A DNA stretch of 37,439 nucleotides from Thermoplasmata archaeon (GTDB lineage: Archaea > Thermoplasmatota > Thermoplasmata > Thermoplasmatales > ARK-15): assembly GCA_023261745.1 (NCBI GenBank), contig JAGDXR010000064.1, positions 1 through 37,439 on the forward strand, read 5' to 3'. The position numbers and the translations under genes are program-made. The notes under the pieces were generated by a model, which was not told the DNA's origin, made no database searches, and saw only the letters and a list, made by a program, of their open reading frames with translations. Each line of letters begins with the position of its first letter. Position 1 is the first letter of the stretch. Positions 264-10,335 of the stretch are shown here, in pieces.

Positions 264-272
264 TTTTTTAAA
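264..272 (+). promoter_or_regulatory. Archaeal TATA-like element for the downstream ncRNA
   Basis: TTTTTTAAA centred about 25 nt upstream of the first base of the structured RNA (293). Confidence 0.5.
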
Positions 273-292
273 TGTAATGAAAATAAAATATT

Positions 293-487
293 GTTTCCGT
301 AAAGGAAGCGGCACCTAAAGGTGAAGTGCCGAGACGGCGGAAACGTACAGAATGGTCCTGGGCCACACAGGGATTGTGGTGTGTCACCACACATATGTGA
401 ACATGTGTCCAGCAGGATCATTCATAGCCCCGGCATGGGTCAGACTGCCCGAAAATGAAGGTTTGTTGTTAATGCCGGGGCAAATAA
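293..487 (+). ncRNA. Putative three-hairpin H/ACA box guide sRNA
   Basis: Hairpin 1: GTTTCCG 293-299/CGGAAAC 338-344, upper stem GGCAC 310-314/GTGCC 326-330, ACA at 347-349. Hairpin 2: GAATGGTCCTG 350-360/CAGGATCATTC 413-423, upper stem ACACA 365-369/TGTGT 404-408, apical TGTGGTG/CACCACA, ATA at 424-426. Hairpin 3: GCCCCGGCAT 427-436/ATGCCGGGGC 472-481, upper stem CAGAC 441-445/GTTTG 461-465, AAA at 482-484. Upper stem to ANA spacing is 16, 15 and 16 nt; each has TGAA on the 3' side of the loop or internal loop. Confidence 0.72.
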
Positions 488-604: not shown

Positions 605-805
605 ATGAACAGATGTATAATATGTGGTGCGCCCATTCGTGAAGGAACGTCCATGTACTGTGTGGACTGCATTTACGAAATTAAACGTGTAAGATTGAAG
701 GATGAAGAAACGCTGGAAGATTTTATAGGAAAGATGAAGGATAAATATACAGAACAGAAATCTCATGAAAATGTTGCAAAATTAGAGAGGTGGTTTGAGT
801 TATGA
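605..805 (+). CDS. Small zinc-ribbon protein
   Basis: Two CxxC pairs (CIICG, CVDC). Track start 590, but GGAGGG at 592-597 fits a Shine-Dalgarno for ATG 605. 4-nt overlap with the next gene. Confidence 0.7.
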   Translation: MNRCIICGAPIREGTSMYCVDCIYEIKRVRLKDEETLEDFIGKMKDKYTEQKSHENVAKLERWFEL

Positions 806-1947
806 AAATTGAAGAGATGGTTGTAAAGGACGTGATGAGCGAGAATCCAATATATGTGGAAGAAACAGAATTGCTTTCCAGGGTAATAGCAAAGATGAAG
901 GAACATCAGATACATGAATTACCAGTTGTGGATTCAAAAAAGAGGGTTGTTGGATATATTGATTTTGAGCATCTTATAAAGAGAAAGAACATACCAATAA
1001 CATCTAAGGTATCCACCGTAATGATAAAACCTCCGAGGATAATATACAGCACACCTGTTGTTGATGCAATCAAAACAATGGCACAGAACGGGTTGAGATC
1101 CATTCCTGTTACAGATGAAAGTGATATTCTCATTGGTCTGGCAACAAGGACAGATTTCACAAGGGCCCTTTTAAATTCCGAATCATTTTCTTCAAAGCCT
1201 GTTGATGATCTCATGGTTGAGAATCCAGTAGCTGTGCTGGAAGATACAACAATATATGAAGCACTTGAAAAAATGAGAAAACTGGATGAAATGAGTATTC
1301 CAGTGGTTGACGACCATAATCATCTTAAAGGAATGGTTCACATAAGGGACATATCCAGGGTGATATGGAGGGAAAAGGAAAGGCCAACTTTAGGAGATAT
1401 GCACGGTGAAAAGGTTAAACAGACTTTTCTCGTTAAGGATTTTCTTTCTCCACCTGTAAATGTTGAAAAGGGAAGTAAAATTAAGGAGGCGATAAAAACA
1501 ATGCTTGATCTGAAATCCCATGTGATTGCCATTACCGATCCGGAGAGTATTTTGGTAGGGATACTGACACAGAGGGATCTTCTAGAACACTTTGCAAGCA
1601 CAAAGGCAGAGGATGTGGCCGTGGTCCAGATAACTGGGATTTCGGAGGGAGATGCAGTCCTTCTGGATTCTATGTATTCCATCATTGAAAGGGATATCAA
1701 GAAAATGGCAAAGTTTGAAAATTTCAAACCTGTTTCACTGACAATCCATATAGAAGAACATGTATCCAAGACATCTGATATTGTATATGTTGTGAGAGCT
1801 AAACTCATTACTGAAAAAAAGGTATTTTACTATACGGATCAGGATGCGAATCTGCTTGCGCTTGTGGACAGAATTATGGATTCACTCCACAGAATAGTGA
1901 GAAAGGAAAAGGAGAAGGAAAAGGAAATGAGGAGATACATGCCGTGA
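802..1947 (+). CDS. Four-CBS-domain protein with C-terminal HPF/RaiA-like domain
   Basis: CBS repeats (VKDVMSENPIYV, VDDLMVENPVAV, VKDFLSPPVNV and others), then a tail SLTIHIEEH...YVVRAKL...ANLLALVDRIMDSLHRIVRKEKEKEKE resembling the ribosome hibernation factor fold. Confidence 0.8.
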   Translation: MKIEEMVVKDVMSENPIYVEETELLSRVIAKMKEHQIHELPVVDSKKRVVGYIDFEHLIKRKNIPITSKVSTVMIKPPRIIYSTPVVDAIKTMAQNGLRSIPVTDESDILIGLATRTDFTRALLNSESFSSKPVDDLMVENPVAVLEDTTIYEALEKMRKLDEMSIPVVDDHNHLKGMVHIRDISRVIWREKERPTLGDMHGEKVKQTFLVKDFLSPPVNVEKGSKIKEAIKTMLDLKSHVIAITDPESILVGILTQRDLLEHFASTKAEDVAVVQITGISEGDAVLLDSMYSIIERDIKKMAKFENFKPVSLTIHIEEHVSKTSDIVYVVRAKLITEKKVFYYTDQDANLLALVDRIMDSLHRIVRKEKEKEKEMRRYMP

Positions 1948-7177: not shown

Positions 7178-8809
7178 TCAGAATAAACCCACTATCGTCC
7201 CGTCTTCAAGGAGATCAATCTTGTATGCAGCTGGTTCCTTTGACAATCCTGGCATCCGCATAATTTCGCCAAGTATGGGAACCACGAAGTTGGCTCCTGC
7301 AGAGATCTTGATTTCCCTCACAGTTACGGTGAAGTCCCTTGGAACATTGAGTGCCTTTGGATCATCAGATATTGATGACTGTGTTTTTGCCATGCACACA
7401 AATGCATTATCCATGCCAATCTTTTTAATTGTCCTGAGATCTTCTTCGGCATCCTTGGTGAATATGACACCCTTTGCACCGTATATGTTTCTGGCAACCT
7501 TTTCAATCTTGACTTCCACGGGATCGTTTATATCATATGTATAATTTATCTCTGGATCAGGATTGGAATCTGCTTTCTGCATGACTTTCCTGGCAAGATC
7601 CTCCCCACCTTCACCTCCTCTGGCAAAGACCTCTGATAGTGACCATGTGATCCTATCCACTGAGAGCAGATCCTCAAGCGCTGATATTTCCTTTTCTGTG
7701 TCCTTAGGAAACCTGTTGATTGCTACCGTTGGATCTATTCCAAACTTTCTCATGTTATTTACATGGAATTTGAGATTTTCATATCCCTTTTTCATGGCCT
7801 CGACATTTTCTTCGTCTGTGTTCTTTGCCCCACCATGGTACTTCATTGCCCTTATTGATGCAACAACCACTACGGCATTCGGCCTGAAATTACCCACCCT
7901 GGTAACTATATTGAAGAATTTTTCGGCCCCTAAATCAGACCCAAATCCAGCCTCGGTTACAAAATAATCCGAAAGTGATAGCCCAATCTTATCTGCCAGA
8001 ATGCTGTTTGTTCCATGTGCAATGTTTCCAAATGGACCAATGTGAACAAATGCAGGGGTGTTTTCTGCGGTCTGAACCAGGTTTGGTTTTAGAGCATTTT
8101 TCAGCAATGCTGCCATTGCTCCAGATGCTCTTATATCCCTGGCTGTAACCGGTTTTCTGTCCCTCGTAAAACCTGCAATTATTCTTGAAATTCTATTCTT
8201 GAGGTCCTGATAATTTTCACTCAAGGCCATTATTGCCATAATTTCGCTTGCCGGAACGATGTCAAACCCATCTTCATACATGATTCCGTTTCCCTTGCCC
8301 AAACCTACAATAATCTGCCTTAGAGCCCTGTCATTCATGTCTATTGTCCTTCTCCATATAACCTTTCTTGAATCTATATGCGGTTCAAGATCATAGTATA
8401 TATGATTATTTACCATGGCCGAAAGGAGGTTATGGGCAGATGATATTGCATGAAAATCACCGGTGAAATGAAGATTTATTTCTTCCATGGGCTGAACTGT
8501 TGATTTTCCACCACCGGTTGCACCGCCCTTTACACCAAATACAGGCCCAAGAGATGGTTCCCTAAGAGCCAGAATGCTTTTTCTGCCAAGCCTGTTTATT
8601 GCCATGGAGAGACCAATGGATGTTGTTGTTTTTCCCTCCCCTGCAGGTGTCGGAGTCATGGCTGTTACAAGTATCATCTTTCCAGTTCTCTTTTTCAAAT
8701 CCTTCATTATCCCAAGATTTATCTTTGCCATATAGTTACCATACTGTTCCACGTATTCTCTGTTTATGCCTGCCATATCGGCTATATCCAGAATATTCTT
8801 CAGACTCAT
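7178..8809 (-). CDS. fhs: Formate-tetrahydrofolate ligase
   Basis: TPTPAGEGKTTTSIGL, LREPSLGPVFGVKGGATGGGKSTVQPMEEINLHFTGDFHAI. Confidence 0.97.
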   Translation of the reverse strand: MSLKNILDIADMAGINREYVEQYGNYMAKINLGIMKDLKKRTGKMILVTAMTPTPAGEGKTTTSIGLSMAINRLGRKSILALREPSLGPVFGVKGGATGGGKSTVQPMEEINLHFTGDFHAISSAHNLLSAMVNNHIYYDLEPHIDSRKVIWRRTIDMNDRALRQIIVGLGKGNGIMYEDGFDIVPASEIMAIMALSENYQDLKNRISRIIAGFTRDRKPVTARDIRASGAMAALLKNALKPNLVQTAENTPAFVHIGPFGNIAHGTNSILADKIGLSLSDYFVTEAGFGSDLGAEKFFNIVTRVGNFRPNAVVVVASIRAMKYHGGAKNTDEENVEAMKKGYENLKFHVNNMRKFGIDPTVAINRFPKDTEKEISALEDLLSVDRITWSLSEVFARGGEGGEDLARKVMQKADSNPDPEINYTYDINDPVEVKIEKVARNIYGAKGVIFTKDAEEDLRTIKKIGMDNAFVCMAKTQSSISDDPKALNVPRDFTVTVREIKISAGANFVVPILGEIMRMPGLSKEPAAYKIDLLEDGTIVGLF

Positions 8810-10335
8810 GATATCACCTCTAACGTTATTTTATTAACATATTCGAGAATTTCATCAGCCTCTTTTTTCATTCTTTCAATATTAGATTTCATATTCTCAA
8901 CAAAATCCCTGTCCTGTATGGATTTCAGGTTTATCATAACATTCATTATTGCACCCATCATTGCTGAGTGTGCAAAATATGCTGAACATGCTCCATCAGT
9001 AATGGCATTCCTGTTTCCCTTTTCCGTAACAACCTTGGAAAGTTTCAAAACTTCAAGACATAACTGGGCAGTATTCATAGGAACTATGCTTGCCTTCTTT
9101 GTTGCTTCCTCAATTTTATTCTTTCTCAATTTTTCCAGTTCCGGCGTGTTCTTTGGAAGCTTGAGTGCCTCCATTATTTCATTGAATGCCTTTTCATCAT
9201 CTTCCATGAGTTTCATCAATTTACTCCTCAATATATTTGCTTCCCTCACAATATTTTTCATTTCTTCTTCATATTCTGCATACCTCTTTTTACCAATGGT
9301 TAGGTTTGCGACCATTGATGATAATGCAGCGGCAACACTTCCTACCAGTGCACTTGCGGCGCCTCCGCCCGGAGCCGGAGATGGAGATGCCAGCTCATCC
9401 AGAAACTGGTTAATACCCTTATCATTTCCGAGCATCCCCTTTTTAAGTAGTTTATATTCTAGGATTTGGTCATTCCTGAAATTTTCCAGACGTAGATAAT
9501 GGTTCATTGTCCTCCTCAACGCATCAATGGGAATCATTCCCACAATCTCTGAATTGGATATGAGAACACCTCTTCTCCGTGCTTCAAGTTTTACCAGTTC
9601 AAATGCCTTGTAAATTCCGGTTTGCTTATAGTTTACAAGGTTCATGGAAACCTGAACCTGATTTTTATCCTTCAGCTCAAATCCCAGTGCCCTGACATTT
9701 TTAAGGCCACCTGACCTTTCCCTGACTGATCTCGCAATCTTTCTGGCAATTTCTATGTCTTCTGTCCTTAGATCTACATTAAATGCAATGAGAAATTCCC
9801 TTGCCCCGATTATTGTTGCTCCTGCCCTTCCTATTTCCTGTGGCCCGTAATCAGGTTTCCACTTTTCTTCCTTTATATGTTCTTTAAGTTGCTCATACTG
9901 AAACTTTTCATTCCTTATGTTTGGAAGATCCTTCCTATCAGGCCTTTTTGCAGCATATTCATAAAGATATACGGGGATCTTCAATTCATTTCCCACCCTC
10001 TCCCCCAGTTGATTTGCCAGCTCAACACATTCTTCCATTGTTGTCTCAAACAGGGGTATAAATGGTATTACGTCAGATGCTCCAAACCTGGGATGGGCAC
10101 CCTTGTGATTATCCATGTCTATGAGCTCAGATGCCCTCTTAATACCACGGAACGCAGCTTCTACTGCATATTCAATTGGTGATACAAATGTGATAACACT
10201 TCTATTATGATCAGGGTCCATCTCTATGTCAAGAATCATTACTTCCGAACGGAATGTTATGCTATTTACTATTTCATCAACAACTTCCTTTCTTCTTCCT
10301 TCACTGAAATTTGGGACACATTCAATAAGTTTCAT
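8806..10335 (-). CDS. ftcD: Glutamate formimidoyltransferase fused to formimidoyl-THF cyclodeaminase
   Basis: N-terminal LIECVPNFSEGRR; C-terminal SPSPAPGGGAASALVGSVAAALSSMVANLT. 4-nt overlap with fhs. Confidence 0.95.
   Translation of the reverse strand: MKLIECVPNFSEGRRKEVVDEIVNSITFRSEVMILDIEMDPDHNRSVITFVSPIEYAVEAAFRGIKRASELIDMDNHKGAHPRFGASDVIPFIPLFETTMEECVELANQLGERVGNELKIPVYLYEYAAKRPDRKDLPNIRNEKFQYEQLKEHIKEEKWKPDYGPQEIGRAGATIIGAREFLIAFNVDLRTEDIEIARKIARSVRERSGGLKNVRALGFELKDKNQVQVSMNLVNYKQTGIYKAFELVKLEARRRGVLISNSEIVGMIPIDALRRTMNHYLRLENFRNDQILEYKLLKKGMLGNDKGINQFLDELASPSPAPGGGAASALVGSVAAALSSMVANLTIGKKRYAEYEEEMKNIVREANILRSKLMKLMEDDEKAFNEIMEALKLPKNTPELEKLRKNKIEEATKKASIVPMNTAQLCLEVLKLSKVVTEKGNRNAITDGACSAYFAHSAMMGAIMNVMINLKSIQDRDFVENMKSNIERMKKEADEILEYVNKITLEVIS

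Follow-up and report, generated by a model that had tools for sequence, protein, structure and literature searches.

Positions 293–484 on the forward strand of the window (the whole 37,439-nt stretch of Thermoplasmata DNA that was analyzed) form three adjoining hairpins. Every one of them carries a pocket, an ANA box and either a K-loop or a K-turn. We read this region, with a probability of about 0.93, as the gene for a ~190-nt three-motif H/ACA sRNA of the HgcG/Pab40 lineage that guides 23S rRNA pseudouridylation at U2511, U2554 and U1915 (E. coli-equivalent numbering). The computed basis is a conserved structure, an H/ACA layout, guide complementarity and a Cbf5 gene, which is found in the window's own genome bin as a 292-aa open frame (contig G000:C24, 325.6 bits). 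Transcription, RNP assembly and modification by the window RNA are predicted from its sequence. In the proposed mechanism, L7Ae would bind each hairpin at its K-loop or K-turn, and Cbf5–Nop10–Gar1 would bind the lower stem together with the ANA box. Both strands of the pocket would pair with 23S rRNA, one on either side of a single uridine, which Cbf5 would turn into pseudouridine: U2511 in motif 1, U2554 in motif 2 and U1915 in motif 3.

The ANA boxes are ACA at 347–349, ATA at 424–426 and AAA at 482–484, and every hairpin loop has a UGA on its 3′ side (322–324, 398–400 and 456–458). The three back-to-back hairpins of the original prediction are present, with ANA boxes at the sites it gives. 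The three-hairpin region folds to −78.9 kcal/mol (z = −4.56), a stability reached by none of 200 shuffles; folded singly, motifs 1, 2 and 3 give z = −2.97, −2.32 and −3.31, respectively. The TATA-like box of the original prediction, some 25 nt ahead of motif 1, is found as TTTTTTAAAT at 264–273 (forward strand); by its sequence it is a putative promoter element, and TTTAAA-like boxes also precede motif 1 in several relatives. A T-rich stretch at 498–516 on the same strand is, from its composition, a possible archaeal terminator. Upstream of position 590 no ORF reaches 60 aa, and no tRNA was found in the window. The contig end at 1–290, ~290 bases devoid of ORFs, contains repeated GTCGA/TCGAC-like stretches and is possibly part of another non-coding element.

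According to the published geometry of archaeal H/ACA RNAs, ten stacked layers lie between the pocket and the K-turn, with 14–15 nt to the box (PMC4652768). All three motifs fit a ten-layer GA stem, capped by a K-turn or K-loop, with 14–15 nt to the ANA box, within the ~14–16 nt from upper stem to box expected of an H/ACA hairpin with an internal pocket. This amends the previously stated upper-stem-to-box distance of 15–16 nt to about 14–15 nt. The pockets listed earlier exist, but their boundaries shift by 1–3 nt because the ten-layer rule fixes them at new positions. The GA stem of motif 1 has G·A at layer 9 in 11 of 12 genomes and A·G at layer 10 in all 12; in the window, U·A replaces the first G·A. 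Read by hand, the GA stem of motif 2 has ten layers with one 3′ bulge, and that of motif 3 in the window has ten layers with one bulged U.

Motif 1 (293–349), supported by the fold and by upper-stem covariation, consists of a lower stem (293–299/338–344), a K-loop hairpin and the ACA box. Its 5′ guide UAAAGGAA (300–307) pairs with UUCCU 3′ of the target, and its 3′ guide is GACGG (333–337), replaced in most relatives by GACGAC, which pairs with GUCGUC. Motif 2 (350–426), supported by the fold, a covariance model and covariation, has a lower stem (350–359/414–423) and a K-turn with a C-stem above the AUA box. Together with U359, its 5′ guide GGGC (360–363) forms UGGGC, which pairs with GCCCA of the A-loop stem, and CAGC of its 3′ guide CAGCA (410–414) pairs with GCUG 5′ of U2554. 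A conserved pyrimidine mismatch, Y364 opposite Y409, separates this pocket from the stem. Motif 3 (427–484) rests on the fold, covariation and the HgcG match, and comprises a lower stem (427–436/472–481), a K-loop and the AAA box. Its 5′ guide GGGUCA (437–442) is a perfect complement of helix 69 UGACCC, and GUUA of its 3′ guide GUUAA (468–472) pairs with UAAC 5′ of U1915. All of these elements lie on the forward strand.

HgcG (RF00064), the three-motif H/ACA RNA known as Pab40 or Pf7, gives the only Rfam hit of note within the window's first 3 kb, at 237–489 (51.5 bits, E = 2e-12). This match falls below the curated gathering cut-off of 77 bits, and no Rfam family passes its gathering threshold in the window. 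Since Rfam misses the guide RNA at this threshold, Thermoplasmatales genomes are left unannotated for it. The window RNA shares with HgcG/Pab40/Pf7 its three adjoining H/ACA motifs in identical order and the motif 3 guide core GGGUYA/GUUA with its helix 69 target (PMC4652768). The guides of motifs 1 and 2 differ from the Rfam consensus: motif 1 has GACGG here and GACGAC in relatives versus GCGAC in the family, and motif 2 has CAGC versus AACCC. The difference shown from Pab40.1 and Pab40.2 is one of guides; their targets, P. abyssi positions 2588 and 1932, stand in that species' numbering and may or may not differ from those of motifs 1 and 2. Outgroup Thermoplasmata still carry the AACCC of the HgcG consensus in motif 2, which supports common descent. 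The window RNA is therefore an uncatalogued relative of the known HgcG/Pab40 type.

A blastn search with the window finds a single partial relative within the family, upstream of a zinc-ribbon gene in another genus (G001). RF00064 reaches 5 of 101 genomes, with four relatives in the order scoring 32–65 bits; we therefore built a dedicated covariance model of motifs 2 and 3. Of 117 genomes of the order, 81 have a match to this model, always as a single copy, and these matches cover 30 of the 33 genera. In a wider sample of the class it matches 131 of 300 genomes (59 of 91 genera), more weakly outside the order. One 17.7-bit match (L010) and the motif 2 half of another (L078) look spurious. Several near-complete genomes of one genus, g9 (G012, G018, G030 and G033 among them), give no match to the model, which may reflect loss or strong divergence of the guide RNA.

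Across 67 homologues, 92.2% of the paired cells of motifs 2 and 3 are complementary and both sides change in 31 of 33 pairs. Covariation scores 0.729, whereas shuffled controls reach 0.217 and slid controls at most 0.133; the alignment was fitted to the covariance model, and the gap to the controls is nonetheless very large. In the upper stem of motif 1, 70 of 72 cells from 12 genomes are paired, with compensatory changes (shuffled mean 34, maximum 53). The HgcG match (E = 2e-12) and covariation far above controls place the three-hairpin structure well beyond chance. The proposed check of covariation across Thermoplasmatales thus comes out strongly, and the H/ACA interpretation gains from it, from a best Rfam family that is itself an H/ACA RNA and from the unique conserved 23S uridine found for each pocket.

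Targets, which the original prediction left unnamed, were read from the 23S genes of relatives because no 16S or 23S rRNA was found in the window's own genome bin. We scored every 23S uridine in 15–18 genomes against 200 permuted guides. Motif 1 selects U2511 (mean pairing 20.9; next column 8.6; best permuted guide 14.1), motif 2 the A-loop U2554 (22.9; 15.0; 19.1) and motif 3 the helix 69 U1915 (24.8; 8.8; 21.2). For each motif, none of the 200 permuted guides equals the real score. Two-sided complementarity surrounds an unpaired UN in motifs 1 and 3, and in motif 2 only an unpaired UNN. E. coli numbering comes from an alignment, anchored at 1915, to a 23S sequence of bacterial origin that is catalogued as E. 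coli; in it, 2449, 2457, 2503, 2504, 2552 and 2580 land at their expected places. This record (NZ_AP027616.1) is a 2.9-kb circular 'E. coli plasmid' with the 23S rRNA as its sole annotation and a sequence not typical of E. coli. It is probably an assembly artefact and, being partly unlike genuine E. coli, was used for numbering only.

That motif 2 needs three unpaired target nucleotides in place of two weighs against this assignment. With the earlier pocket, or with a two-nucleotide gap, motif 2 gave nothing above the permuted guides. Of the three scores, that of motif 2 is the least independent, because the UNN gap was picked after viewing the data. A third unpaired target residue has been described for Pa19 and Hvo2 (PMC4652768). 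Motif 2 might instead serve another uridine, either the adjacent U2555 or U2586. The second of these has been suggested for hairpin HP1 of Haloferax (Psi2621), which is described as the homologue of Pf7 stem II (PMC2584109). Families f4 and f5 have an A at position 2555 and yet keep the guide, which indicates U2554 rather than U2555 as the site. The outgroup guide AACCC does pair with GGGUU before U2586. Within the order, however, the guide is CAG(A/C), 2586 is not among its best columns and two-sided pairing is best at 2554, so we consider either substitute site improbable and retain U2554.

In the order, the A-loop stem reads GGGGCUG[U] and the motif 2 guide CAG; outside it, in the five families with a 23S sequence (f8, f11, f14, f17 and f21), the stem reads GGGGUUG[U] and the guide CAAC or CAA. 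By this comparison, the guide (CAA to CAG) and its target (UUG to CUG) appear to have changed together between other Thermoplasmata and Thermoplasmatales. We give the change moderate weight, because it is probably one evolutionary step rather than many and because the outgroup guide can pair ahead of U2586 as well. On balance we lean, by a narrow measure, towards an ancient HgcG-lineage RNA in which two of the three pockets were rewritten in Thermoplasmatales, so that it guides 2511, 2554 and 1915, with a UNN gap in the middle motif and a guide that changed with the A-loop stem.

Motif 1 is unevenly retained. It lies beside motifs 2 and 3 in the inspected genomes of families f1, f3 and f5 and most of f6, and no motif 1 adjoins them in the inspected f4 genomes (L022, L023, L032 and L037). 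The f4 23S rRNA retains the 2511-equivalent U although motif 1 is gone from the locus. In two f1 genomes (G001 and G002) the 3′ guide keeps only three contiguous target pairs, and in f6 the 5′ guide pairs weakly. This patchiness, together with the non-standard three-nucleotide gap of motif 2, would suit an H/ACA RNA in which motif 3 alone still guides while motifs 1 and 2 are kept for stability or as rRNA chaperones. Such a reduced role seems unlikely to us: in motifs 1 and 2 alike, the guides find unique conserved targets with scores above those of every permuted guide, and in motif 2 the guide changes along with its target.

Three working guides would connect this RNA to sites that are modified in yeast. 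The helix 69 site, 1915, has been reported as the uridine guided by Pab40.3/Pf7 stem III, by Af4.3 from Archaeoglobus and by Haloferax Hvo2/HP2 (PMC4652768, PMC2584109), all of them equivalents of motif 3. In Haloferax, the two hairpins lie far apart and a stem I homologue is missing (PMC2584109), in contrast to the three adjoining hairpins of the window RNA. In yeast numbering, 2552 corresponds to 2921 and 1915 to 2258 (PMC2584109), and 25S Psi2880, Psi2923 and Psi2258 are made by snR34, snR10 and snR191, respectively (PMC8307265). From these equivalences and this list, 2511 equates with Psi2880, 2554 with Psi2923 and 1915 with Psi2258. If the assignment is true, one archaeal RNA serves three functional-center pseudouridines, each of which has its own snoRNA in yeast; the likeness is one of guided position, and sequence homology is not claimed. 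In the open literature searched, no H/ACA guides are named for this order of acidophilic archaea, which would thereby gain a conserved H/ACA gene with named targets at sites pseudouridylated in yeast, and also an example of a guide that changes in step with its rRNA target.

The surroundings of the gene bear on a different account, in which the hairpins would be a riboswitch or 5′ leader belonging to the zinc-ribbon gene downstream, or else an array of terminators. The zinc-ribbon gene also follows the RNA in the second genus of the family (G001). In other families, unrelated genes adjoin the RNA, and throughout the order both the H/ACA geometry and the complementarity to rRNA are conserved, which makes a leader or terminator highly improbable. 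The guide RNA remains our reading of this locus. Farther downstream, the frame at 802–1944 (forward strand) encodes four CBS stretches and, after them, a sequence weakly matching S30AE (ribosome hibernation; E = 5.6e-4, just below the cut-off); its product is possibly a CBS–HPF fusion encoded near the guide RNA. A contig scan with this CBS protein as the query returned only unrelated Glycomyces. Genes for formate–tetrahydrofolate ligase and formiminotransferase-cyclodeaminase lie side by side at 7181–10335 on the reverse strand.
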